Of a stretch of 38,946 nt of DNA, positions 25,993-37,984 are shown piece by piece; positions within the stretch are counted from its first letter, which is position 1; each line of letters starts with the position of its first letter. Origin of the DNA: Clostridiales bacterium (GTDB lineage: Bacteria > Bacillota > Clostridia > Lachnospirales > Lachnospiraceae); contig JAQXPY010000135.1 of the NCBI GenBank assembly GCA_029100885.1, positions 1 to 38,946 of the forward strand, read 5' to 3'. A program made the position numbers and the translations under genes. Below the pieces are notes generated by a model. That model was not told where the DNA came from, did no database searches, and saw only the letters and a list, made by a program, of their open reading frames with translations.

Positions 25993-26670
25993 ATGAAGGT
26001 AGGATTAATTTATACCGGAACTACGCCTGAGCTCATTGAGGATATCGAGCGTGAGGTCAGAGCGCAGATCGGAAATGAAGCAGAGCTTTTCAGCCTTGCA
26101 GATCCGTCAATAATTGCGGAGGTCAGAGATGAGGGATATGTTACCACTCCGCCGGCTGCAAGACTTATAACTATGTTTATGAAGGCTGCCGAGGAGGGCT
26201 GTGACGCTGTTCTGAATATCTGCAGCTCGGTCGGAGAGGTTGCCGACTGCGTGCAGGATACCGCAAGATATATCGGAATGCCTATCGTCAGAGTTGACGA
26301 AGAGATGTGCCGTGAGGCTGTACGCGAAGGTGAGAGGATCGGAGTCATGGCAACACTTCCTACGACGCTTGAGCCGACCAAGAACACTATCAAGCGTATG
26401 GCAAGGGAGAACAACAAAAAGATCGAGCTGGTCGACTGTCTTGTTGACGGCGCTTTCGGTCTTGATCAGGAGCAGTTCAGAGCCAGAATGGGAGAGTGTG
26501 CAGGAAGGATCGCAGATAAAGTAGATGTGATCGTATTCGCACAGGGCTCAATGGCATACTGCGAGAAGTATATTGCGGATATGTACGGCAAGGTGGTTCT
26601 CAGCAGTCCGAGATTCGGTGCGGCAGCACTCAGAGAAGCTCTTGTAAAGAAGGGACTCATAAAAGACTGA
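25993..26670 (+). CDS. Asp/Glu racemase-superfamily protein with one catalytic Cys
   Basis: Cytosolic protein of 225 residues related to the Asp/Glu/hydantoin racemase, maleate isomerase and arylmalonate decarboxylase superfamily (LIYTGTTPELIED at the start, GERIGVMATLPTTLEPT mid-protein). The first catalytic Cys is present as C77 in LNICSSVGE. At the place of the second Cys (usually GCTG-like) it has AQGSMAY, so S186 replaces it. That argues against a classical two-base racemase and for a decarboxylase, isomerase or other single-Cys reaction. As the first gene before the TRAP importer, it probably acts on the imported acid or a derivative. The substrate is unknown. Confidence 0.75.
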   Translation: MKVGLIYTGTTPELIEDIEREVRAQIGNEAELFSLADPSIIAEVRDEGYVTTPPAARLITMFMKAAEEGCDAVLNICSSVGEVADCVQDTARYIGMPIVRVDEEMCREAVREGERIGVMATLPTTLEPTKNTIKRMARENNKKIELVDCLVDGAFGLDQEQFRARMGECAGRIADKVDVIVFAQGSMAYCEKYIADMYGKVVLSSPRFGAAALREALVKKGLIKD

Positions 26671-26749
26671 TAACATTATTTATTGATCGTGCGTTGGTAT
26701 ATCGCCTCGTTCAATAAGTGTTTATAGATTTAATGAAAGGGAGAAAACT

Positions 26750-27820
26750 ATGAAAAAGGTACTTTCACTTGCTACAGCAGCAGCTCTTGCAATGGGTCTT
26801 GTTGCATGCGGCTCATCATCAACAGCCAGCACAACAGCGGCAGCTACACAGGCGGCAGCTGAGACAAAGGCAGAGGCAGAGACACAGGCTCCTGCAGCCG
26901 AGGAGCCAAGCGTGACTCTCAAGCTCAGCTTCTCAACAAACGAGGAGGATCCGAGAGCTAAAGGTGCTCAGCAGTTCAAGGCTGAGGTAGAGGAGAAGAC
27001 AAACGGTGCTGTTACAGTCGAGATCTATCCTTCAGGACAGCTCGGAGGAGATGCAGACCTTATCAACTCCATCGCACTTGATTCCGGTACAGTTGATGTT
27101 ATCATCACAGATGCTTCCAACTTCGCTACATATGAGCCTAAGATGGGTATTTCGGCACTTCCGTTCCTCTTTGAGGATTTTGATAAGGCATGGGAGTTCA
27201 TGGACGGTGAGATCGAGGCCGCTGCAGAAGCAGGACTTATCGAGCAGAACATGAGAGTCCTTGCACATTATGATAACGGATTCCGCTGCGTTACAAACTC
27301 CATCGGACCTATCGAGACAGCAGCAGATATGAAGGGACTTCTTATCAGAACTCCTGAGAACCCGGTAATCATGGCTACTATGACTGCTCTTGGCGCTAAT
27401 CCTCAGCCGCTTGCATTCTCAGAGCTGTATCAGGCACTTCAGCAGAAAACCTATGATGCACAGGAGAACCCTATCCCGGTTATCTACAACAATAACCTCT
27501 ATGAGGTTCAGCAGTATCTGAGCGTTACAAACCATATCTATTCCGGTATGTGCTTCACCATTGCAGAGAGCACCTGGAACAAGCTCAGCGACAGCCAGAA
27601 GGAGATTGTTGATGCAGCTGCAAAGGCATCGGCTGATATGGATCGCGAGCTCAACAAGCAGCAGACCACAGACCTTGTTTCAAAGCTTGAAGAGGCTGGC
27701 ATGAAGATCAACTATCCTGATCTTGCAAGCTTCAAGGAGGCTACAGCTTCTGTTCTTACAGACAATGCAGCTACATACGGTGAGCTTATGGATCAGCTTC
27801 AGGCTTGGCTTGGAAAGTGA
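26750..27820 (+). CDS. dctP: TRAP transporter solute-binding lipoprotein (DctP type)
   Basis: Extracellular binding protein of a TRAP importer, which takes up organic acids with a sodium gradient. The 356 residues begin with a lipoprotein signal (MKKVLSLATAAALAMGLVAC, Cys20) and an Ala/Thr/Glu-rich tether to about residue 48. The mature part has typical DctP features: LKLSFSTNEEDPRAKGAQQF, EIYPSGQLGGDADLINSI, and the carboxylate-binding Arg region MKGLLIRTPENPV, with QENPIPVIYNNNLYEVQ. AAAGGGAG precedes the ATG. A GC-rich hairpin follows the gene, before dctQ. The ligand is unknown; the Arg suggests a carboxylate. Confidence 0.93.
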   Translation: MKKVLSLATAAALAMGLVACGSSSTASTTAAATQAAAETKAEAETQAPAAEEPSVTLKLSFSTNEEDPRAKGAQQFKAEVEEKTNGAVTVEIYPSGQLGGDADLINSIALDSGTVDVIITDASNFATYEPKMGISALPFLFEDFDKAWEFMDGEIEAAAEAGLIEQNMRVLAHYDNGFRCVTNSIGPIETAADMKGLLIRTPENPVIMATMTALGANPQPLAFSELYQALQQKTYDAQENPIPVIYNNNLYEVQQYLSVTNHIYSGMCFTIAESTWNKLSDSQKEIVDAAAKASADMDRELNKQQTTDLVSKLEEAGMKINYPDLASFKEATASVLTDNAATYGELMDQLQAWLGK

Positions 27821-27878
27821 TCACAATTCTGACACGATCGTGAAGATCTTTTGTCAACAGTAAAAATACTGACTTTTT

Positions 27879-27905
27879 AACGGGCGGGGCCTTGCCCCGC
27901 CCGTT
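27879..27905 (+). promoter_or_regulatory. GC-rich hairpin between dctP and dctQ
   Basis: AACGGGCGGGGC (27879-27890) and GCCCCGCCCGTT (27894-27905) form a perfect 12-bp stem with a CTT loop. No U-tract follows. Within an operon, such a structure after a binding-protein gene typically protects the upstream mRNA and lets dctP be made in excess over the membrane subunits. Confidence 0.8.
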
Positions 27906-27965
27906 TCAGGGAAAAGGGTTTTTCAGATTTAATTGTGTATGCAACCCGAAAGGAGAATCACTGAT

Positions 27966-28454
27966 ATGAAAAAGATCCAGTCTGCACTGGATAAGGCGAG
28001 CACTTTCGTAGCTGCTGTATTATGTGCCTTAATGATGTGCATTCTGTTGGCCAACGTTATACTCAGATATATTCCGGGTATAGGCGGCTTTAAATGGTAC
28101 ATGGAAGGCGGACAGTATCTGAATGTATTTTCTATGCTTCTTGCCGGTGCCGGAATCACGGTTCAGAGAACACATCTGCATGTTGAGCTTGTGGATACCC
28201 TTGCGGCAAAGCACCCGGCTGTTCAGAAGATACATCAGATAATAGTATCTATATTTATTATTCTGTTCTATGCCATGATGACCTATTCAGGATATCTGCT
28301 CTGCACTAAGGCCAAGCAGGCGGTATCTACCATGCCTCAGTTTACAATGGGACAGGTCTATACCATATTCCCGATAGCTGGAGCTCTCTGCGTACTTGCA
28401 GCTGTTGTCGACCTTATCATATGTCTGACGGATAAAAAGGAGGACGAAAAATGA
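27966..28454 (+). CDS. dctQ: TRAP transporter small membrane subunit (DctQ type)
   Basis: The 162-residue protein has four hydrophobic segments, the usual DctQ layout, with the conserved region YLNVFSMLLAGAGITVQRTHLHVELV. It pairs with the large subunit DctM. The ATG at 27966 has AAAGGAG ending ten bases upstream; the more distal ATG at 27933 lacks a site. The stop overlaps dctM by 4 bases (ATGA), so the membrane subunits are translated in tandem. Confidence 0.92.
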   Translation: MKKIQSALDKASTFVAAVLCALMMCILLANVILRYIPGIGGFKWYMEGGQYLNVFSMLLAGAGITVQRTHLHVELVDTLAAKHPAVQKIHQIIVSIFIILFYAMMTYSGYLLCTKAKQAVSTMPQFTMGQVYTIFPIAGALCVLAAVVDLIICLTDKKEDEK

Positions 28455-29728
28455 TTGCCTGGTTACTGATCTCATTCTTTGTTCTGCTGTTCCTCGGCGT
28501 TCCTATCGCTATGGCTCTCGGTCTGTCTGCCATCGGTGGAATACTCTTTCTCGGAGGAGGCGCACCGGTAACGATCACCCAGCGTATGTTTGAGGGAATA
28601 AACTCCTGGGCTCTGCTTGCGATCCCGCTTTATACTTTTGCCGGCTATACCATGTCAAAGGGAGGCATCTCCAAAAGACTCATGGATTTCTGTTATTCCA
28701 TAGTCGGACACATTTACGGCGGTCTCGCTCATGTAAATGTTCTTTCCTCTATGATCTTTGCGGGCATCTCGGGCTCAGCAGTAGCAGATACAGCCGGAGT
28801 TTCCGGAATGTTCATGCCTGAAATGATACGCAAGGGTTATTCCAAGAAGTTTACTGTAGCTGTTACGGCTATTTCATCAACTATAGGAATCATTATTCCG
28901 CCTTCCATACCGATGGTGGTCATGGCAGGAATCTGCGGCATTTCCACAGGAAAGCTGTTCCTCGGAGGAATTCTTCCCGGTGTGCTCTGCGGCCTGGCCC
29001 AGATGATAGTGTCATATTTTATTGCCAAGAAGGAGGGAGTTGAAAGAGAAGAGGGACACTTCTCCATTAAACCGGTGCTCCATGGCTTAAAGGAAAGCTG
29101 GCCGGCGCTGCTGATGCCTATCATCATTGTCGGCTCCATAACTCTCGGAATCGTATCACCAACCGAAGCGGGAGTTATCGCTGTGGCATACGGTCTCGTA
29201 GCCGGCGGTCTCATCTACCGTGAGCTGACATGGGCAGATATCAAATTTGCTTTTGCCGACACAGTCAGAGTATCGGGACGAATCTTTATCGTCATCGGTG
29301 CCGCTAAGCTTTATACCGTTATGCTTACGACCGCAGGATTTGACAAGTGGATGGCAAATACCATGCTGGGATTCTCCACAAATCCTACAGTGATACTTAT
29401 TATGATACTTCTTCTTTTCTTCGTCGTAACGATGTTTATGGAGAGTATTGCAACGCTGACACTGTTTATGCCTATCCTGTTCCCTATCGCCATGAGTGTC
29501 GGAATCGACCCGATAGTGCTCTGTGTTCTTATAACGGTGGTTATCGGTGTTGGTCTTGTTACACCACCTGTAGGAATGTGTATTTATGTTGCCTGTGATC
29601 TTATGGATATTACAGTCGGAGAGGTATTCCCTAAGCTGGTACCTTTCCTGTGTGCAACCCTGATATGTATAGGACTTATGATAGCATTTCCTCAGATCAT
29701 TCTTCTTCCTACTTATCTTATGTCATAA
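28451..29728 (+). CDS. dctM: TRAP transporter large permease subunit (DctM type)
   Basis: Large subunit of the TRAP importer, 425 residues with about 12 hydrophobic segments. Family text is evident: FLGVPIAMALGLSAIGGI, MIFAGISGSAVADTAG, IIPPSIPMVVMAGI and PVGMCIYVACDL. It forms the sodium-coupled channel with dctQ and receives substrate from dctP. The complete three-component importer sits at the head of the microcompartment genes, which suggests that its substrate feeds the compartment. Confidence 0.94.
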   Translation: MIAWLLISFFVLLFLGVPIAMALGLSAIGGILFLGGGAPVTITQRMFEGINSWALLAIPLYTFAGYTMSKGGISKRLMDFCYSIVGHIYGGLAHVNVLSSMIFAGISGSAVADTAGVSGMFMPEMIRKGYSKKFTVAVTAISSTIGIIIPPSIPMVVMAGICGISTGKLFLGGILPGVLCGLAQMIVSYFIAKKEGVEREEGHFSIKPVLHGLKESWPALLMPIIIVGSITLGIVSPTEAGVIAVAYGLVAGGLIYRELTWADIKFAFADTVRVSGRIFIVIGAAKLYTVMLTTAGFDKWMANTMLGFSTNPTVILIMILLLFFVVTMFMESIATLTLFMPILFPIAMSVGIDPIVLCVLITVVIGVGLVTPPVGMCIYVACDLMDITVGEVFPKLVPFLCATLICIGLMIAFPQIILLPTYLMS

Positions 29729-29734
29729 TTCTGC

Positions 29735-29740
29735 TATAAT
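29735..29740 (+). promoter_or_regulatory. Possible -10 element before the GntR gene
   Basis: A perfect TATAAT lies seven bases after the dctM stop, with only a poor -35 (CTTATC at 29712-29717). It could give the regulator a weak promoter of its own; it may also be chance. Confidence 0.3.
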
Positions 29741-29760
29741 GACTGAGGAGGAGAATGATT

Positions 29761-30462
29761 ATGCAGTGTTTAACGGATGATAATGTAAACTCCGTTGTGG
29801 ATCGTGTCATGAACGGAATAATCAATGATATTATTACCGATAAATATCGACCCGGTGATAAGCTGCCCACGGAGACCGAGCTGAGTCAGCGCTATGACGC
29901 AGGTCGGAATTCAGTCAGGGAAGCGGTCAAAATACTTCAGGCCTACGGAGTGCTTTACATCAAGCGTGCAGACGGGACATATGTAAGCGAAAACTACAAC
30001 CAGAGAATGCTTGATCCGATGCTGTATAGTATTATTCTCCGGAAGAACAGCCGTGATGATTTTGTCGGACTGAGGTCTATGATAGATATCGGAGTTCTGA
30101 GCGTAGTCGTTCAGAGAAGGGATGTGACTGAATATCTTCCCGGAATATATCTGACCTTCGGCGAGCTTTCCGCGGAGCTTCACTGTGAGAATGCGGATCT
30201 TGAAAGAGTCGTGGAGTTGGATAACCGTTTTCATCAGAAGATAGCCGAGGCATCGCGGAACCCGATGATCTGTACTATGGCAGAGTATATCAACAGGATT
30301 ACCATACCGAGCAGACTTGAAACGACAAGGAAAGCTTTAAGCGATAAAAATAATATCGATAACTTTATTGAGCTTCATCGTGAGATCCTTAATGTTATCG
30401 AGAGCAGAAAAACAGAGGATATAGTGAGAGTCGTGAATGAACACTATATCTACTGGAAATGA
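29761..30462 (+). CDS. GntR-family regulator, FCD (FadR) type
   Basis: Predicted transcription factor of 233 residues. The N-terminal winged helix reads IITDKYRPGDKLPTETELSQRYDAGRNSVREAVKILQAYGVL. The C-terminal all-helical FCD domain keeps the likely metal or ligand residues (DNRFHQKIAEAS, HREIL, NEHY). FCD regulators usually bind small carboxylates or sugar acids, matching the TRAP importer. It is likely the local regulator of this operon. I prefer ATG 29761, ten bases after GAGGAG; ATG 29755 is too close to it. Its stop lies 20 bases before the BKACE start. Confidence 0.9.
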   Translation: MQCLTDDNVNSVVDRVMNGIINDIITDKYRPGDKLPTETELSQRYDAGRNSVREAVKILQAYGVLYIKRADGTYVSENYNQRMLDPMLYSIILRKNSRDDFVGLRSMIDIGVLSVVVQRRDVTEYLPGIYLTFGELSAELHCENADLERVVELDNRFHQKIAEASRNPMICTMAEYINRITIPSRLETTRKALSDKNNIDNFIELHREILNVIESRKTEDIVRVVNEHYIYWK

Positions 30463-30482
30463 TTGAACACGGAGTTATTACA

Positions 30483-31328
30483 ATGAGAAAGATTCTGATT
30501 TCGGTTGCCCCTGTTGGGGCATCCGACAAATTGATTAATCCGAGGGCGATCGCCAGAGACGTGTATGACTCATATAAAAACGGAGCGTGCATGGTTCATC
30601 TGCATTGCAGGGATCTCAACGGAAGACTTACTCCGGATATCAGCCTTTTGGAAGAGACGATAATGTATATCCGGGAATTATGCGAGGATATCATTATAGA
30701 GATCTCCACCGGAGGCGTATCAAATCTGACCATAGAGGAACGCTGCCAGACCTGCTACCCGGAATGGGTAGAAACGAACAGTCTGAATGTCGGCTCGGTC
30801 AATCTCGGCACAGCTGTTTACCAGAATCCGATAAAGGATGTGGAGTACTGTGTCGGAAAGATCCTCGAAAATAACAAGACACCGGATATTGAGGTCTTCG
30901 AGCTCGGAATGATAAATACAGTCAGAGAGCTGGATGAAAAGTTTCATTTCAAGCGCCCTATGCTCTTTGCTCTCGTATTCGGACACGGCGGAGAAATGCC
31001 GGCTACCGTACCTGCTTTGGATCATATGATAGGAGCTCTTTACGAGAATTTTCCTGAAAAGAGCGATGTTATCTGGGGCTATACACAGGCTCACAGAGAA
31101 GACTGGGAAATGATCAAGGTGGCTCTCGACAAAGGAGCATCCGCTGTCAGAGTGGGATTTGAGGATTCGGATATGATAGCTCCGGGAGTACATTGCGATA
31201 CAAACTCGGCCATAATAGCGGATCTTGCAGACGTTATCAAGTCCAAGGGCATGATGCCTATGACACCTGCGGAGGCAAGACAGATGCTGGGTATACCTCC
31301 GCTTAAAAAGGAGAGGATGAAATGGTAA
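30483..31328 (+). CDS. Beta-keto acid cleavage enzyme (BKACE, DUF849)
   Basis: BKACE proteins use zinc to condense a beta-keto acid with acetyl-CoA, releasing acetoacetate and a new CoA ester. Here, 281 residues form the TIM-barrel with zinc ligands H39 and H41 (MVHLHCRD) and the later Glu in VRVGFEDSD (E227). Other family text is ISTGG and EARQMLGIP. ATG 30483 has GGAG eight bases upstream. There is no visible encapsulation peptide, so it may act in the cytosol. Substrate specificity varies widely among BKACE enzymes and cannot be read here. The stop overlaps the aldolase start. Confidence 0.9.
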   Translation: MRKILISVAPVGASDKLINPRAIARDVYDSYKNGACMVHLHCRDLNGRLTPDISLLEETIMYIRELCEDIIIEISTGGVSNLTIEERCQTCYPEWVETNSLNVGSVNLGTAVYQNPIKDVEYCVGKILENNKTPDIEVFELGMINTVRELDEKFHFKRPMLFALVFGHGGEMPATVPALDHMIGALYENFPEKSDVIWGYTQAHREDWEMIKVALDKGASAVRVGFEDSDMIAPGVHCDTNSAIIADLADVIKSKGMMPMTPAEARQMLGIPPLKKERMKW

Positions 31329-32341
31329 TACAGGGAGTATCTTATCCTTCTGATTTTGAGGCAAAAAAATCTATCATAGCAGCAGCTGCAGTTCTTTCCG
31401 GAAAGGGAAGCATGCCTGCGGGAGACGGAAGCCTGAGCGTCAGAGTGGGGCCAAATGCCGTATGGATAACAGTAGACGGAGCCGATAAGACCGCACTTAC
31501 ACAGGATATGATGGTCAGAGTTGACCTTGCGGGAAGACAGTCCGCAACAAATAAGCCAAAGCCTTTGGGCTGTGACCTTGAGTCTCATCTCAGACTTTAT
31601 CGTGAAAATAATAATATCAGATCCGTTATCCATGCTTATCCGGTCAGAGCAGTTGTGTTCGGTGCGGAAAACAGGGAGCTGTCACCGGCCTCCCTCACGC
31701 CTGCCGTTCGCAGACTGGGAAGGCTTCAGCTGATCACGGCTTCGGATCCTCAGAAGGCTGCTGAGAATATCGCATTATGCGCCAAGTCTGATCACGGAGT
31801 CCTTATAAAAAATGAGGGCTGTATGATGTGGGGCGGGTCTGTGACCGAGGTACTCAGCTATTTTGAGACACTTGATTATTACTGCAGGGCGCTCAGATAT
31901 CTTGATCGAACCGTACACGCCGAAAGCAAACCTACAGAAACGATCAGCTGCTCAGGTGACTGCCAAGATTGCTCCCGGAAGTCGGTCTGTGACAGCTGCA
32001 ACGGAGAATGCCGTCCATCTGGTGTTTCCTATCCTTCAGCTCTTCCAAAGGGAATGACGGGAATAATCAGACCAGGTGCGCCGCTTCCTTGTATTCCGAA
32101 GGAAAAAAACAACAGCTGCGATGATGCTGTCTCTGCCTCGAGCCTGCCTGAGGCAGCCTCTGAGCAGCCTGAGAATACAGCTGTAATTACTGCTGTGCCG
32201 GTTAGCGGCAATGAAAAAGAAGTGGCTGCTGCCGTTTCCGACAGCAGCGGCAGACATCCTTCGATCTCTGCTTCCGCCGTTGTAAACGCGCCGAAAGCAG
32301 CTGTGATCAGTGAGGTCGTCAGGAGGACTATCTCTTTATAA
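31322..32341 (+). CDS. Class II aldolase/adducin-family enzyme with Cys-rich tail and encapsulation helix
   Basis: The first 200 residues match the L-fuculose-phosphate-aldolase fold: GDGSLSVR (GNLS-like), catalytic Glu87 in LESHL, and SDHG with H158. The canonical HxH zinc pair is instead H104-A-Y106, so one ligand is Tyr. A Cys cluster follows (C210, C214, C217, C223, C226, C230), then a Pro/Ala/Ser-rich linker and a C-terminal amphipathic helix (AAVISEVVRRTISL) resembling BMC encapsulation peptides. Family enzymes cleave aldols to an aldehyde or decarboxylate beta-keto acids. No sugar kinase is nearby, so the substrate may be unphosphorylated. It is the likely aldehyde source for the compartment. 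Confidence 0.85.
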   Translation: MVIQGVSYPSDFEAKKSIIAAAAVLSGKGSMPAGDGSLSVRVGPNAVWITVDGADKTALTQDMMVRVDLAGRQSATNKPKPLGCDLESHLRLYRENNNIRSVIHAYPVRAVVFGAENRELSPASLTPAVRRLGRLQLITASDPQKAAENIALCAKSDHGVLIKNEGCMMWGGSVTEVLSYFETLDYYCRALRYLDRTVHAESKPTETISCSGDCQDCSRKSVCDSCNGECRPSGVSYPSALPKGMTGIIRPGAPLPCIPKEKNNSCDDAVSASSLPEAASEQPENTAVITAVPVSGNEKEVAAAVSDSSGRHPSISASAVVNAPKAAVISEVVRRTISL

Positions 32342-32367
32342 AAATGTTACGAAAGGAAGAATAAAAT

Positions 32368-33849
32368 ATGGATATCAGTTCGCAGGAAATAGAATCCATT
32401 GTTCGTAAGGTTCTGTCCGGAATCGAGCAGAACGGCAGAGTAGAAGCAGTATCGGCTCAGCCTGCTGCGAGACAGACAGTATCATATTCTTCGGCTGCTC
32501 CTGCTGTCAGCAAAGACGGAGATTACGGAGTATTCGATAAAATCGAGGATGCGATAGAGGCTGCAAATAAAGCCCAGAAGGAGTGGAACACCAGTTTCAG
32601 GGTGGAGGACAGAAAGCGTATCGTAGATGCCATCAGAAGAGCTTCAAGACACCACATAGAGGAGTGGTGCACCAGAATAGTAGAAGAGACTGGCATGGGA
32701 CGCTATGAGGACAAGGTGGAGAAGCATCTCGCTGTCATAAACAAAACTCCGGGTCCGGAGTGCCTCAATACCTTTGCGCTTACCGGAGACGACGGTCTTA
32801 TGCTGGAGGAGTTCGGACCTTTCGGTGTGATCGGAGCCATTACTCCTACCACAAACCCGACCGAGACGATCATCAATAATACGATAAGTATGATCTCAGG
32901 CGGCAATTCGGTAGTGTTCAATGTACATCCAAGAGCGAAAAAGGTCTGTGCCGACTGCCTTCAGGTATTGAATAAGGCTATCCAGGATGCAGGCGGACCG
33001 GCAAATCTCATCACCATGACAAAGGAGCCTACTATGGAAAATGTGGACAAGATGTCCGCAAGTCCTTATATAAGGATGATGGTAGGAACCGGAGGAATGG
33101 GCATGGTTAATGCACTGCTCAGAAGCGGCAAGAAGTGTATAGGAGCCGGGGAAGGAAATCCTCCTGTTATCGTTGATGAAACGGCGGATGTAGCACATGC
33201 GGCGCGCATGATCTACCAGGGAGCTTCCTTTGACAACAATATAGTATGCTTTGCCGAAAAGGAGATATTTGCTGTTGACAGCATTTACGACGGTCTTCTT
33301 CATGAGTTAAAGAAGAACGGCGCCTTTGTGGTAAACCGTACTCAGGCGGAACAGCTTACGCGTCTGTGCATAAAGAAAAAGGCAAAAGGTGACGGCTATG
33401 AGCCTAATAAGGATTGGGTAGGAAAGAACGCCTCCGAAATACTCAGGCAGATCCACGTAAATGCTCCGGATACATGCAGACTTGCCATACTAGAGACCGA
33501 TGCAGAGCATCCTTTTGTAATGTGCGAGCAGCTTATGCCTGTAATCCCGATAGTAAGGGTGAAGGATTTTGAAGAAGCCGTAAGATGTGCTGTAAAGGCG
33601 GAAAGAGGCAACAGACACACTGCCTCAATGTTCTCTACAAATGTGAATCATATGACAGCTTTTGCCAAGGCTATTGAGACGACTATATTTGTGAAGAACA
33701 GTGCCACCAAGGCCGGTCTCGGTATAGGCGGTGAGGGTCACTGCACTATGACTATTGCCGGTCCTACAGGCGAAGGAATCACAAATGCAAGAAGCTTCTG
33801 CAGAAGAAGACGCTGCGTGCTGGCAGAGGGCGGACTCAGAATCGTCTGA
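32368..33849 (+). CDS. CoA-acylating aldehyde dehydrogenase, microcompartment cargo
   Basis: Oxidises an aldehyde to acyl-CoA with NAD+ (PduP/EutE type). The 493 residues start with an amphipathic helix MDISSQEIESIVRKVLSGI, typical of an encapsulation peptide, and a flexible linker to about residue 50. The catalytic Cys is C294 in DNNIVCFAEKE, and the cofactor-region text GPFGVIGAITPTTNPTETIINN is clear. It sits between the aldolase and the shell protein. The gene is preceded by GAAAGGAAG. It is the central step of the inferred pathway; the aldehyde is unknown. Confidence 0.94.
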   Translation: MDISSQEIESIVRKVLSGIEQNGRVEAVSAQPAARQTVSYSSAAPAVSKDGDYGVFDKIEDAIEAANKAQKEWNTSFRVEDRKRIVDAIRRASRHHIEEWCTRIVEETGMGRYEDKVEKHLAVINKTPGPECLNTFALTGDDGLMLEEFGPFGVIGAITPTTNPTETIINNTISMISGGNSVVFNVHPRAKKVCADCLQVLNKAIQDAGGPANLITMTKEPTMENVDKMSASPYIRMMVGTGGMGMVNALLRSGKKCIGAGEGNPPVIVDETADVAHAARMIYQGASFDNNIVCFAEKEIFAVDSIYDGLLHELKKNGAFVVNRTQAEQLTRLCIKKKAKGDGYEPNKDWVGKNASEILRQIHVNAPDTCRLAILETDAEHPFVMCEQLMPVIPIVRVKDFEEAVRCAVKAERGNRHTASMFSTNVNHMTAFAKAIETTIFVKNSATKAGLGIGGEGHCTMTIAGPTGEGITNARSFCRRRRCVLAEGGLRIV

Positions 33850-33854
33850 TATTA

Positions 33855-33881
33855 ATGTACAGTCGGATATAAAATGTACAT
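33855..33881 (+). promoter_or_regulatory. Overlapping inverted repeats before the shell gene
   Basis: ATGTACA (33855-33861) pairs with TGTACAT (33875-33881). An overlapping pair, CGGAT (33863-33867) with ATCCG (33879-33883), cannot form together with it. The 122-base gap before the shell gene is the longest in the distal operon and has no clear U-tract or promoter. It may set shell expression by RNA structure or processing. Confidence 0.4.
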
Positions 33882-33977
33882 CCGCTGCCATAAACGCAAG
33901 GATGCCGATATGAATGAAATATTCTGAAGAATAATTATAAATCTAATTTCTACTGCAAATCAATCAGGAGGATGATC

Positions 33978-34565
33978 ATGAAAGCATTAGGTTTTATTGA
34001 AACAAAGGGTCTTGTAGGCAATGTTGAGGCAACAGATGCTATGCTTAAGGCAGCTGACGTTGAATTTATCGGTTCCAACACCATCGGTGCAGGACTTACA
34101 ACAGTAATAGTAACAGGTGAGGTAGGTGCAGTAAAATCCGCAGTTGAGGCCGGCGAGGCAGCTGCATCAAGAGTAGGTGAGTTATTCTGCTCAAACGTTA
34201 TTGCACGTCCACACAACGATATTGAAAAGATCCTTCCGCCGAAGGGTCCGGCTGTAGGCAGATCCGGGGCTCCGGCCGGCGAGCAGGTTCCTGTTATTTC
34301 CGCTCTCGGCATGATCGAGACAAACGGTCTTACAGCTAATATCGAGGCAGCCGACGCAATGCTCAAGGCAGCTGATGTGACACTGGTAGGTCAGGAGAGG
34401 ATCGGAGCAGGTCTTGTAACTGTATTTGTACAGGGCGATGTAGGAGCTGTCAAGGCAGCCGTTGAGGCAGGAAGCAATGCTGCATCACGTATCGGCGAGA
34501 TCGTCAGCGTACATGTTATTCCTCGTCCTCATACAAGTGTCGGTGAGGTAATGCCTGAGCTTTGA
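33978..34565 (+). CDS. Microcompartment shell protein: two fused BMC-H-like domains
   Basis: The protein has 195 residues. Residues 1-90 and 105-195 each form a full, non-permuted PduA/EutM-like BMC domain ([10 protein letters not shown].../[10 protein letters not shown]...), about 60% identical to each other by eye, joined by a short Gly/Pro/Ala linker. Three copies would make a pseudohexamer tile. The pore loops are TIGAG and RIGAG, where PduA has KIGSG, so pore residues alternate. ATG 33978 has AGGAGG six bases upstream. It is the only hexagonal shell gene seen; the pentamer is 35272-35529. Confidence 0.92.
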
Positions 34566-34596
34566 TCCGCAGCATTCGGAAATGAGGTAGTAAAAA

Positions 34597-35256
34597 TTGA
34601 CCTATCAGAATATACAAGAGGAACAGCTTATCGAGATAGTCACACAGGCTGTTCTGAAGGAGCTTCAGAAAAAAACTGACGATATTCCTGTAGGTATTTC
34701 GGTAAGGCATATTCATCTGACCAGAAGTGATGTGGACTGGCTTTTCGGCAGAAACTATCAGCTGACGCCAAAAAAGGCGCTCAGTCAGCCGGGGCAGTAC
34801 GCATGTGAGGAATGTTTAGATGTGATCGGTCCTAAGGGGGAGCTGAAGAAGGTGAGAATACTCGGCCCCGAGCGCAGCTCGGCGCAGGTGGAGCTTTCCC
34901 AGACCGATCTCAGGACGATCGGACTGACAGCACCTGTAAGAAGCAGCGGGGATCTTGACGGGACGCCCGGAGTCAGGCTTCGCGGGCCTAACGGTGAGAT
35001 CACTCTGTCGAAGGGCGTCATCATTGCCGACAGACATATTCATATGACGCCGGAGGATGCTCTCCGTTTCGGAGTAAAGGACGGAGACAGAGTAAGCGTT
35101 GAGGTAGGCGGTATAAAGCCCGGCATTATGGGTAATGTACTGATCAGAGTCAGTGAAACAAGTGCCCTGGATATGCACATCGATACAGATGACGGAAATG
35201 CCTTTATGCTCAGTCAGGGACAGCGTCTGAGGATTCTGAAGCAGACTAATCGATAA
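34597..35256 (+). CDS. pduL: PduL-type phosphate acyltransferase, microcompartment cargo
   Basis: Converts acyl-CoA and phosphate to acyl-phosphate, recycling CoA inside the shell and giving a precursor for ATP. Two PduL half-domains are visible: GISVRHIHLTRSDVDWLFG and ADRHIHMTPEDALRFGV, each with the RHIHxT zinc signature. The N-terminus (EEQLIEIVTQAVLKELQ) is an amphipathic encapsulation helix, as in other PduL proteins. The start is TTG at 34597 with GAGG (34584-34587 area) upstream; no ATG fits. It has 219 residues, the usual length. Confidence 0.94.
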   Translation: MTYQNIQEEQLIEIVTQAVLKELQKKTDDIPVGISVRHIHLTRSDVDWLFGRNYQLTPKKALSQPGQYACEECLDVIGPKGELKKVRILGPERSSAQVELSQTDLRTIGLTAPVRSSGDLDGTPGVRLRGPNGEITLSKGVIIADRHIHMTPEDALRFGVKDGDRVSVEVGGIKPGIMGNVLIRVSETSALDMHIDTDDGNAFMLSQGQRLRILKQTNR

Positions 35257-35271
35257 GTTAGGAGTTAAGGA

Positions 35272-35529
35272 ATGATTCTTGGTGTAGTGAAGGGAACAGT
35301 ATATTCCACACGTAAAATGGAGAATCTTAAGGGACTTAAATTCCTTATGGTACAGCCTGTAAACGGCACAAAAAAAGATATTTTTGTGGCTGCCGATACC
35401 ATAGGAGCAGGAACAGGAGAGCTTGTGCTGGTCACCACCGATCAGACGACTCAGTATGCTCTGGATTATCCGGCACCTGTTGACGCGCTTATCGTCGGTA
35501 TCGTAGATAATCCTCCGGCAATGGAATAA
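35272..35529 (+). CDS. eutN: Microcompartment vertex protein BMC-P (EutN/CcmL family)
   Basis: The 85-residue protein has the EutN/CcmL fold signature: MILGVVKGTVYSTRK at the start, VAADTIGAGTGELVLVT in the middle and VDALIVGIVDN at the end. Such pentamers cap the twelve vertices of the shell. It follows pduL by 15 bases with GGAG/AAGG upstream of the ATG, and the flavoprotein begins 13 bases after its stop. It is the only pentamer gene in the window. Confidence 0.94.
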   Translation: MILGVVKGTVYSTRKMENLKGLKFLMVQPVNGTKKDIFVAADTIGAGTGELVLVTTDQTTQYALDYPAPVDALIVGIVDNPPAME

Positions 35530-35542
35530 TTGAGGTAGCAAA

Positions 35543-36772
35543 ATGAGAATTGTGGTTATAGGCAGTATTGCCGCAGGAGTGTCTGCAGCACAGCAGATCT
35601 CCGGCGGTGATGGCAGCGCCCGTATAACTGTATATGAAAAGGGAGCTTTTTACAGCTGTGGTGTAGACGGACTTCCTTATTATCTTGCAGAGAGCACAGA
35701 GACTCTTAATGAAGCAGTTATGAAAAAGGAGTCGGAGCTTGCATCTGCCGGTATTGACGCCAGACTGCTGCATGAGGTGACAGGAATCGATCCTGTGCGT
35801 CATACGCTGAGGGTGAAGGAGCTTACAACAGGCAGAGAGTTTGAGGACAATTATGACAGGCTTGTCATTGCCGTTGGTTCCTCAAATATCATTCCTGCGG
35901 TACCTGGCTGCGACAGGATCGGCGTACATACGTTAAAGAGTGTTGAGGAGCTTATCTTTATCAAGGAGTTCATCCGTAGTCCGTATGTCAGAGATATAGT
36001 TATTCTCGGAGCGAGCTGGAGCGGACTCGAGATAGCGAAGGCATTTCTTAAGACCGGAAGACATGTGCGCATCATTGACAGCAGCAGACAGCTTCTGCCG
36101 GAATTCGACCCTGAGATCAGCAATATTATCCGTCAGCAGCTGGAGCTTGAAGGCGTAATGTTCAGTCTCGGCGAGAAGGTGCGTTCCTTCCCGGGCAGAA
36201 CATTTGTCGAGCAGGTACAGACCGACAGAAACTCATATTCATGCGATCTGTGCATTGCTGCGGATGCCGCTGTTCCGAATACCTCTGTTTTAAGAGGAAC
36301 CGGTATAGAAACTGATTCAAAGGGCAGAATTGCTGTCAACCGCATGCTGGAAACAAATGTTAAGGATATTTATGCTGTTGGCGATTGCTCGGTATGCAGA
36401 GAAGGAACACTGAATACCTGCAGTATTCGCGTTGGAAACACAGAGATCGCTGTGACAGGTCTTTCCGAGTCGGCGGCAAAAGCAGCCGGAATCAGGGTAA
36501 AGTGTGCTGTGGCTCAGGGTCAGGACAGACCTGGTATCTGTCCGAATCCTAAGAGTATTTCCATCAAGCTTGTATGTGAGGCGGGAACCGGCAGGATCAT
36601 AGGAGCCCAGGCCTGGGGCGGAAAGAATGTAGCGACAAGGATCAATGCGGTCGCAGTAGCTATCTCTGCGGGAATGACTGCCCGGCAGCTCGCATGCACC
36701 GATTTCTGTTTCTCTTCTTCAAGGTGTACTATATGGGATCCTATACAGCTTGTCTGCGGACAGATAAAGTAA
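35543..36772 (+). CDS. CoA-disulfide reductase/NADH oxidase-like flavoprotein
   Basis: Class I pyridine-nucleotide disulfide oxidoreductase-like enzyme of 409 residues. It has FAD motif VVIGSIAAGVSAA (residues 4-16), NAD motif ILGASWSGLEIA (about 153-164) and C-terminal FAD block IYAVGDCSV. The redox Cys of the Nox/CoADR group appears as C39 in YSCGVDGLPYYL, with a three-residue insert compared with the usual CGLPYY. It is about 30-40 residues shorter than typical Nox/CoADR, mainly in the C-terminal dimerisation part. Such a protein is not a usual BMC enzyme; it may rebalance NADH or handle thiol/disulfide state. Confidence 0.85.
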   Translation: MRIVVIGSIAAGVSAAQQISGGDGSARITVYEKGAFYSCGVDGLPYYLAESTETLNEAVMKKESELASAGIDARLLHEVTGIDPVRHTLRVKELTTGREFEDNYDRLVIAVGSSNIIPAVPGCDRIGVHTLKSVEELIFIKEFIRSPYVRDIVILGASWSGLEIAKAFLKTGRHVRIIDSSRQLLPEFDPEISNIIRQQLELEGVMFSLGEKVRSFPGRTFVEQVQTDRNSYSCDLCIAADAAVPNTSVLRGTGIETDSKGRIAVNRMLETNVKDIYAVGDCSVCREGTLNTCSIRVGNTEIAVTGLSESAAKAAGIRVKCAVAQGQDRPGICPNPKSISIKLVCEAGTGRIIGAQAWGGKNVATRINAVAVAISAGMTARQLACTDFCFSSSRCTIWDPIQLVCGQIK

Positions 36773-36826
36773 GCTTCAGTAACCGGACATTTGCATGTTA
36801 AAAACAAAGTAACAAAGGAGCGTTTT

Positions 36827-37984
36827 ATGCCTGAAAGGATCAATGCTGTAAAGACTACATTTTTCGGAAAGGGAGCCATCAGAATGCTTGGACCTGAACT
36901 GAAAAAGACAGGTATAAGCAGAGCGCTTGTTATTACCGATAGATTTCTCTATGAAAACGGTCTTTGCGCAAAGGCTGCAGAGGCTCTTTCGGATGCGGGA
37001 ATCGAGTTTGCGGTATATTATGATGTAAAGCCTAATCCGTCAGTGTATGTCGTCAACGAATGTATAGCTGCGGCAAGAGCAATTGATGCAGGTGCTCTTA
37101 TTGCTTTAGGGGGAGGCTCCGCCATTGATACTGCCAAGGCTGTAAGCATAGTGATAGAGAATGGCGGAAGAGTAGAGCAGTATGAGGGTGTCGATAAGTC
37201 TTCAAGGCCGGGAATGCCGGTTGTAGCGATCAATACAACTGCAGGAACCGGAAGTGAATGTACAAGCTTTTATATCGTCACGGATCCGGAAAGACACAGC
37301 AAGATGGCAATGACCGACAGCAACTGCATGGTTGCCATAGCTGTGAATGATATCGATTTTATGATGTCGATGCCGCCAAAGCTGACTGCCGCAACAGGAA
37401 TGGATGCACTTACCCATTCCATAGAAGCCCTTTTTTCAAAAAATGCTTCTCCGGTCACGGACAAGGATGCAATATGGGCAATAGAGGTAATATGCAGGTA
37501 TCTGCCTCAGGCCGTAAGAAACGGTTCCGATGAAAAAGCCAGAACCATGATGGCTTACGCGGAAAATGTTGCAGGCATGGCCTTCAGCAATGCCGGACTC
37601 GGAATGGTTCATGCCATGGCCCACGCCTTGGGAGGTCATTACAATCTTCCTCATGGTGTGTGCAATGCGGTATTGCTTCCTCATGTACTGAGGTTTGATG
37701 CCGGACACAGCTGCTACGATGACAGATTCAAGCTGCTTGCAAAAGCTATGGGTCTCGAGTATTATAATCGTAGTGCCTCGGAGGCGGTAGTCGATGCGGT
37801 ATGCGCAATGAATTCACAGATAGGGATCAGTCCTTCACTCGCTATGCTGGAGGGTGTCGATCCGTCGGATTTTAAGGCGCTCACGGCGTTGGCAATGCAT
37901 GATACCTGTATGAGTACGAATCTGTATCAGGTCAGCGCAGAGGATGTATCCGAGGTTTATAAAGCGGCTTACAACGGAATCTGA
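36827..37984 (+). CDS. Iron-containing alcohol dehydrogenase
   Basis: Group III (iron-dependent) alcohol dehydrogenase of 385 residues, reducing an aldehyde to an alcohol and regenerating NAD+ for the aldehyde dehydrogenase. The NAD-binding block GGGSAIDTAKA is clear. Metal ligands are D193, H197, H262 and H276 (GMDALTHSIEA, HAMAHALGGHYNLPHG), as in FucO. The start at 36827 has AAAGGAG upstream; the earlier ATG at 36791 has none. No encapsulation peptide is visible; it may be carried by interaction or act outside. It is the last gene of the operon. Confidence 0.93.
   Translation: MPERINAVKTTFFGKGAIRMLGPELKKTGISRALVITDRFLYENGLCAKAAEALSDAGIEFAVYYDVKPNPSVYVVNECIAAARAIDAGALIALGGGSAIDTAKAVSIVIENGGRVEQYEGVDKSSRPGMPVVAINTTAGTGSECTSFYIVTDPERHSKMAMTDSNCMVAIAVNDIDFMMSMPPKLTAATGMDALTHSIEALFSKNASPVTDKDAIWAIEVICRYLPQAVRNGSDEKARTMMAYAENVAGMAFSNAGLGMVHAMAHALGGHYNLPHGVCNAVLLPHVLRFDAGHSCYDDRFKLLAKAMGLEYYNRSASEAVVDAVCAMNSQIGISPSLAMLEGVDPSDFKALTALAMHDTCMSTNLYQVSAEDVSEVYKAAYNGI

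Follow-up and report, generated by a model that had tools for sequence, protein, structure and literature searches.

Among the bacterial microcompartments (BMCs) described so far, the CoAT type of Clostridium indolis offers the clearest comparison for the locus considered here, an operon that joins a metabolosome core to a TRAP transporter and a beta-keto acid cleavage enzyme (BKACE, DUF849). The 2014 description of that type gives its function as unknown (PMC4149025, Table 11), and its gene table has the order aldolase, aldehyde dehydrogenase (ALDH), BMC-H, PduL, EutN, FAD dehydrogenase and iron-containing alcohol dehydrogenase (ADH). The same order is found in a Lachnospiraceae genome (Clostridiales bacterium, assembly GCA_029100885.1, 1.96 Mb in 183 contigs, 92.8% complete) on contig JAQXPY010000135.1, our contig C135, whose 38,946 nt are referred to below as the window. 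An earlier note on the window, made from its letters alone, had allowed that the operon might equal an existing BMC type. In its shell and core half the operon is clearly related to the CoAT BMC. The CoAT gene table has no BKACE, TRAP, FCD or racemase entry, and it does have a DeoR regulator, two CoA-transferase genes and, between EutN and the FAD dehydrogenase, an extra binding-protein gene that is absent from the window (PMC4149025).

Other known types resemble the window in part. PVM-like BMCs, which occur in Firmicutes and gut species, also carry a class II aldolase gene with an ALDH; according to PMC4207490, PMC8217296 and PMC8156839 they are grouped by the aldolase as signature enzyme and most of their loci have a DeoR regulator, whereas the window has a degenerate aldolase and a GntR/FCD regulator. 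Metabolosomes of the MUF and MIC types share with the window a set of core enzymes without a recognised signature enzyme. The words TRAP and racemase are absent from the main texts of both BMC catalogues, and DUF849 from that of 2014. A pairing of BKACE or DUF849 with a microcompartment was not found in the open-licence literature, and a search there for 3-keto-5-aminohexanoate with a microcompartment turned up only airway co-culture work. Within that literature and the catalogue main texts the BKACE-type locus is apparently undescribed; it may be listed in the 2021 catalogue under PVM-like, MIC or MUF.

The operon comprises 13 open reading frames (ORFs) at 25993-37984, all on the + strand and separated by -7 to 122 bp, each with a Pfam family above cut-off. 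It looks like an offshoot of a CoAT-like system that has been rewired to a sugar-type acid imported by TRAP. Its gene content, linkage and conservation, the loss of the aldolase active site and the presence of a kinase beside BKACE in two loci outside BMCs are all read from sequence. The genes named in the earlier note were recovered at their coordinates by Pfam and NCBIfam matches, and its central observation is borne out as well, namely a complete metabolosome core that has no classical signature enzyme in the operon and is linked to an acid importer and a BKACE. PF00171, PF06130, PF00465, PF00936 and PF03319 are each present above cut-off, and no Pfam match to an EUT, PDU, GRM or RuBisCO signature enzyme was seen in the 13 operon ORFs and the next ORF, the rest of the genome being outside this search.

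The core contains an ALDH of the CoA-acylating type (32368..33849; EutE/PduP subfamily model NF011927, 654.6 bits, cut-off 403) with an N-terminal amphipathic peptide, the phosphotransacylase PduL (34597..35256; PF06130, with NF011652 above cut-off), a BMC-P vertex protein of the EutN/CcmL family (35272..35529; PF03319, 84.1 bits), a flavoprotein with a YSCG motif (35543..36772; PF07992) and an iron-containing ADH near lactaldehyde reductase (36791..37984; PF00465/PF25137; TIGR02638 at 382.5 bits, below its cut-off of 523). The flavoprotein had been likened to CoA-disulfide reductase, which is indeed the nearest NCBIfam model (NF007123), though its 316.6 bits fall below the cut-off of 458. A promoter and terminator scan of the window did not rise clearly above shuffled sequence (21 against a shuffle mean of 17.6, and 11 against 9.0).

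Loci L035 of [Clostridium] aerotolerans and L036 of Lacrimispora algidixylanolytica were taken as representing the CoAT layout. Their ALDH, PduL, EutN and ADH are 54-69% identical to those of the window and their shell pieces 43-79%, whereas their aldolase is intact and only 32-36% identical, and their flavoprotein only 36%. Flavoprotein and ADH, the two genes between which the CoAT type has its CoA-transferase pair, are only 18 bp apart in the window, and PF01144 was found in the genome only on contig C42. A tree of ten ALDH sequences splits the BKACE type from this sister type with modest support (79/88). In 4/4 loci of the CoAT layout (L035, L036, L071 and L072) the CoAT gene order and an intact aldolase are accompanied by adjoining mtnK and mtnA genes upstream, identified in L035:6541-8913 as methylthioribose kinase (412 bits, cut-off 275) and methylthioribose-1-phosphate isomerase (406 bits, cut-off 279) and in the others by reading the ORF lists; L073 has the core and neither mtnK/mtnA nor CoA-transferases. 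Because mtnK and mtnA adjoin the intact aldolase, the CoAT BMC probably handles methylthioribose or 5-deoxyribose. No open-licence paper on 5-deoxyribose and a bacterial microcompartment was found, and the relevant passage on Acetobacterium woodii calls a methylthioribose kinase gene that adjoins the pdu cluster unrelated to BMC function (PMC7593272).

What most sets the BKACE type apart is its aldolase (31322..32341; PF00596), which has a Cys-rich linker and a C-terminal tail resembling an encapsulation peptide. Judged by residue comparison, it is an aldolase by fold and not by active site. In the window, H-Y-E and D stand in place of the H-H-H metal set and the catalytic E; here and below we take the roles of phosphate-site, metal and catalytic residues to be those of fuculose aldolase (titles in the PDB show that E. 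coli FucA mutants exist at N29, S71 and E73). All seven BKACE-linked loci have other residues at the phosphate-site Asn and Ser positions and at metal His 2 and 3, and five of them also at the catalytic Glu; the L070 copy carries less weight because its frame is broken. By comparison, among 24 loci that lack BKACE (21 with a readable ORF and three without), the whole set, phosphate-site residues included, is kept in 21/21 readable cases, one of them with Thr for Ser. The earlier proposal, in which cleavage of the imported acid falls to a class II aldolase within the shell, runs against these replacements, and the aldolase was rejected as a working signature enzyme.

Within the BKACE type the aldolase has also diverged most among the seven proteins compared. 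Over its first 200 residues, BKACE-type sequences are on average 49% identical (15 pairs) and those of the sister type 79% (6 pairs), while the corresponding ALDH values are 73% and 69% and the BKACE protein itself averages 76% within its type. Next lowest after the aldolase in the BKACE type is the flavoprotein at 55% (with the shortened L033 copy left out). BKACE-type aldolases form one tree group (100/100), with end branches of 0.37-0.95 as against 0.01-0.13 in the sister type. A structure model of the window protein has a mean pLDDT of 52.6 (about 80 at residues 11-100, low elsewhere), and its best match is the fuculose-aldolase structure 2irp (E 3e-10). Most likely, the aldolase is a retained non-catalytic cargo protein.

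The encapsulation helix previously assigned to this aldolase draws on homology of the C-terminal tail and on a low-confidence helix at 325-338 in the model; the hydrophobic moment of the tail is not above that of shuffled sequence (634/1000 shuffles reach it). This test, run with 1000 shuffles for each protein end, is a weak one, since the ADH C-terminus (14/1000) stands out as well as the ALDH N-terminus (13/1000). By the same weak test the PduL N-terminus was not above shuffles (305/1000), and no amphipathic end of BKACE stood out.

The association of BKACE with this core recurs in relatives. An aldolase search of 397 genomes of the family gave matches in 120, and the neighbourhood was inspected for BKACE in 30 loci. 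BKACE adjoins the aldolase in six of these 30 (L037-L041 and L045, the window genome included), which carry six genus labels, and contig L034 provides the seventh BKACE-linked locus. L033 and L034 are from Lachnospiraceae, the L033 aldolase being that of G313, a genome of the window's family. The order racemase-like gene, DctPQM, GntR, BKACE, aldolase, ALDH, BMC, PduL, EutN, flavoprotein, ADH is common to L033, L067, L068, L069 and L070, where the small BMC, PduL and EutN ORFs were partly detected only by tblastn. The 8-kb contig L034, which starts inside BKACE, keeps the layout in part, and no PduL or EutN was found on it. Because the same order recurs in these five loci and partly in L034, the linkage from the racemase-like gene to ADH is, on gene order, not chance. 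BKACE overlaps both neighbouring genes by 4-7 bp in the window and lies -35 to 65 bp from its neighbours in the relatives. That the BKACE and TRAP genes might be unrelated to the shell genes, a possibility the earlier note had entertained, is disfavoured by this single run of genes and by its preservation.

Three of these relatives have peculiarities of their own. In L070 (G205) the frames of DctP, BKACE, ALDH and PduL are broken, through poor assembly or decay. In L033:14564-16582 flavoprotein and ADH are fused into one 672-aa ORF, the flavoprotein part being shortened and without the YSCG cysteine. At L034:7096-7896 an intact class II aldolase with an encapsulation-peptide-like tail directly follows the BKACE-type locus.

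The shell gene of the window (33972..34565, 197 aa) has two PF00936 domains in tandem and exceeds the NCBIfam EutM model (204.4 bits, cut-off 133). Its halves match separate BMC-H genes of relatives; such genes are fused in the window and in L034:3395-4012 and separate in L033, L067, L068 and L069. Given the EutM-type best match and the separate halves, we interpret the ORF as two adjoining BMC-H genes that have fused, in preference to a classical BMC-T. Since PF00936 matches are confined to this locus, being the two domains of this ORF in the window genome and separate BMC-H genes in G037, G054 and G149 (4, 4 and 2 matches), BMC-H and BMC-P are apparently the sole components of the shell, though in a genome 92.8% complete a further shell gene may be missing. 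G117, the only congener of the window genome in the sample, has no PF00936 match.

The front half of the operon includes a TRAP system, which consists of DctP (26750..27820; PF03480), DctQ (27933..28454; PF04290, 63.6 bits), which the earlier note did not name singly, and DctM (28451..29728; PF06808) and is followed by the GntR/FCD regulator (29755..30462; PF00392 and PF07729). Relatives of DctP at E 1e-90 occur in two of 391 genomes of the class, the window's own included, as it is in the other counts from this set given below. Residues R179, R200 and N240 of DctP align with R152, R173 and N213 of 4P47, which are named as carboxylate-binding in PMC11668362. Since the two Arg and one Asn responsible for binding the carboxylate of the ligand in homologues are conserved in DctP, the transporter probably imports an acid. 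A structure model of DctP was of unusable quality (mean pLDDT 36.0). By sequence the best match of DctP is 4PDD, the ligand of which we take to be D-erythronate.

The first gene encodes a protein of the Asp/Glu racemase superfamily (25993..26670; PF01177, 55.8 bits, cut-off 31). As the earlier note had it, this protein has a single conserved Cys: ten aligned sequences share one CSS motif and have no Cys at what we presume to be the usual second place. It occurs in 13/391 genomes and has no PDB match at E 0.01. Ten of its 15 other places (L125-L134) were examined for neighbours. In L125-L127 it lies near a TIM-barrel isomerase-like gene, a transaldolase (both by Pfam in L125, otherwise by reading) and a likely split transketolase, and the TRAP system of L125 has a DctP 63% identical to that of the window. 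L128 has cupin, racemase-like, reductase, kinase and FBA-like aldolase genes, and in L129-L132 the racemase-like gene is accompanied by an FBA-like aldolase gene, BLAST adding a kinase match in L129 and in L132. Neither kinase nor FBA-like aldolase was found near it in L133 and L134.

Among relatives of the whole operon, a DUF1537 kinase gene lies upstream of the racemase-like gene on the same strand in 5/5 with upstream sequence (about 2.5 kb away in L068), and a cupin gene precedes the kinase (by Pfam in L067, by BLAST in L107 and by ORF reading in the others). Kinase and cupin recall the DUF1537 pathways for four-carbon acid sugars, as does the L128 cluster of cupin, racemase-like gene and kinase without a shell. 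Unlike those pathways, the BMC operon has no decarboxylase or FBA-like aldolase, and the NCBIfam kinase models score far below cut-off. The window genome has one DUF1537 kinase of that subfamily, 56-59% identical to the four linked kinases compared. Its gene is on contig C151 (L104:2727-6126), flanked on one side by a tartronate-semialdehyde-reductase-like gene and on the other by an FBA-like aldolase gene.

BKACE itself (30459..31328; PF05853, 186.8 bits) has the HxH zinc motif and RxGxED, with HxH, STGG and R[VI]GFEDS kept, motifs whose roles we take to be those usual in the family. Its relatives at E 1e-40 or better are confined to 5/391 genomes. Two of the four outside loci, all from other families, have it near a DUF1537 sugar-acid kinase of the same subfamily: L142 and the 5.5-kb contig L143, where an FGGY kinase and a lyxose-isomerase-like protein are also encoded. 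Reading of the ORFs gave a lyxose-isomerase-like gene in L145 as well; L144 contains a TRAP system and what looks like a split transketolase. L142:7579-12711 combines BKACE and the DUF1537 kinase with GH127/GH106-like hydrolases, and no shell gene was seen there; it is possibly a BKACE pathway for sugar acids. A carnitine- or lysine-type BKACE was considered and is not favoured, the matching curated models being far below cut-off and the neighbours in the four outside loci reading mostly as sugar genes, and nothing specific to sulfonate metabolism (PMC11659671) was found. The neighbourhoods of BKACE and of the racemase-like relatives point to sugar-type acids instead of amino acids or carnitine as the substrate class.

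Taken together, these observations suggest a metabolosome derived from the CoAT BMC or sharing an ancestor with it, an account to which, as a whole, we give a probability of about 40%. The TRAP transporter would import a carboxylic acid with hydroxyl groups, probably one of the short sugar acids, and cytosolic enzymes (the racemase-like protein and, in relatives, the DUF1537 kinase and cupin) would convert it to a 3-oxo acid. BKACE would then use acetyl-CoA to cleave the 3-oxo acid to a short acyl-CoA, for example glycolyl-CoA from a tetronate-like acid. Within the shell, PduL, ALDH and ADH would split the acyl unit into acyl-phosphate and alcohol while the aldehyde is kept inside, and the old signature aldolase would survive, without catalysis, as an encapsulated and probably structural partner. 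The substrate is a guess, and we infer the order of reactions, the scaffold role of the aldolase and the cytosolic place of BKACE. Glycolyl-CoA would suit the ALDH, since this is closest to the sister-type ALDH, whose presumed aldehydes have two carbons, and a hydroxylated cleavage product would need no CoA-transferase or thiolase. The sharper statement that the signature enzyme has been swapped, with a dead metal aldolase turned cargo scaffold, BKACE feeding acyl-CoA from a sugar acid to the shell and the core running from acyl-CoA, is more doubtful.

Several points weigh against this account. A weak point is that acyl-CoA must cross the shell, or BKACE act at the shell, and we know of no BMC fed by acyl-CoA entry. 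Kinase and cupin are not beside the window operon; the same-subfamily kinase of the window genome is on another contig and falls outside the group of linked kinases (87/96) in a tree with open forks, long branches and modest support, and in the remaining two of the four BKACE loci from other families no kinase of this kind was seen. CoA-transferase domains occur in 3/6 genomes and thiolase C-terminal domains in 5/6, so the acetoacetate route is not uniform. As for the aldolase, the first metal His is kept in 6/7 BKACE-linked copies, and the BKACE type has 11 core columns in which another residue has become fixed, the change from His to Tyr at position 106 being one of them; the protein may therefore have taken on a constrained new role instead of having none.

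One form of such a role would be a catalytic activity of a new kind within the shell, without metal or with a different set of ligands, through which the altered aldolase still supplies the aldehyde. Ser for Asn at 37 and Tyr for the second metal His at 106, both among the 11 newly fixed columns, are invariant in six full-length members, and Foldseek matches of the aldolase model include non-haem-iron enzymes of the same fold, such as TqaM. The third His position, however, varies (E, D or N, with R in L070, whose frame is broken), P or G stands at the first serine, and the protein is the least conserved of those compared, so we regard this activity as unlikely. The earlier note's own view, in which the aldolase cleaves an imported unphosphorylated keto acid in the shell, has fold and tail in its favour and is highly improbable in the face of the replaced metal, phosphate-site and catalytic residues.

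The aldehyde could also come from a canonical class II aldolase encoded elsewhere, with the degenerate copy as its targeting or assembly subunit. The intact L034 aldolase begins about 0.6 kb after ADH and its C-terminal tail aligns with encapsulation peptides, another class II aldolase gene of the window genome, which runs off the end of contig C169, retains intact SSE, HTH and NHG motifs, and at least one PF00596 match outside the locus was found in 6/6 genomes searched. But in those six genomes a stretch of 20 kb around the operon holds no second PF00596 match, the nearest being about 23 kb away in G313, and the listed neighbours of the C169 aldolase are not shell genes; we regard this arrangement as slightly more unlikely than a new activity. 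It is less probable still that the half with TRAP, racemase-like protein and BKACE and the half with the shell are separate pathways sharing an operon by location only. BKACE, racemase-like and TRAP relatives do exist without a shell gene in the stretches examined, and BKACE has no clear encapsulation peptide by the weak test; yet the gene order is the same in six loci of six genus labels (partly so in L034), BKACE is tightly spaced with its neighbours, and aldolase decay tracks BKACE linkage in every locus read.

If the metabolosome account is true, a bacterial organelle changes its substrate by replacing its signature enzyme while the dead enzyme is kept inside, and BKACE chemistry is joined to microcompartments. 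For the CoAT BMC, unexplained in 2014, the comparison yields a direct prediction: its substrate would be methylthioribose or 5-deoxyribose.

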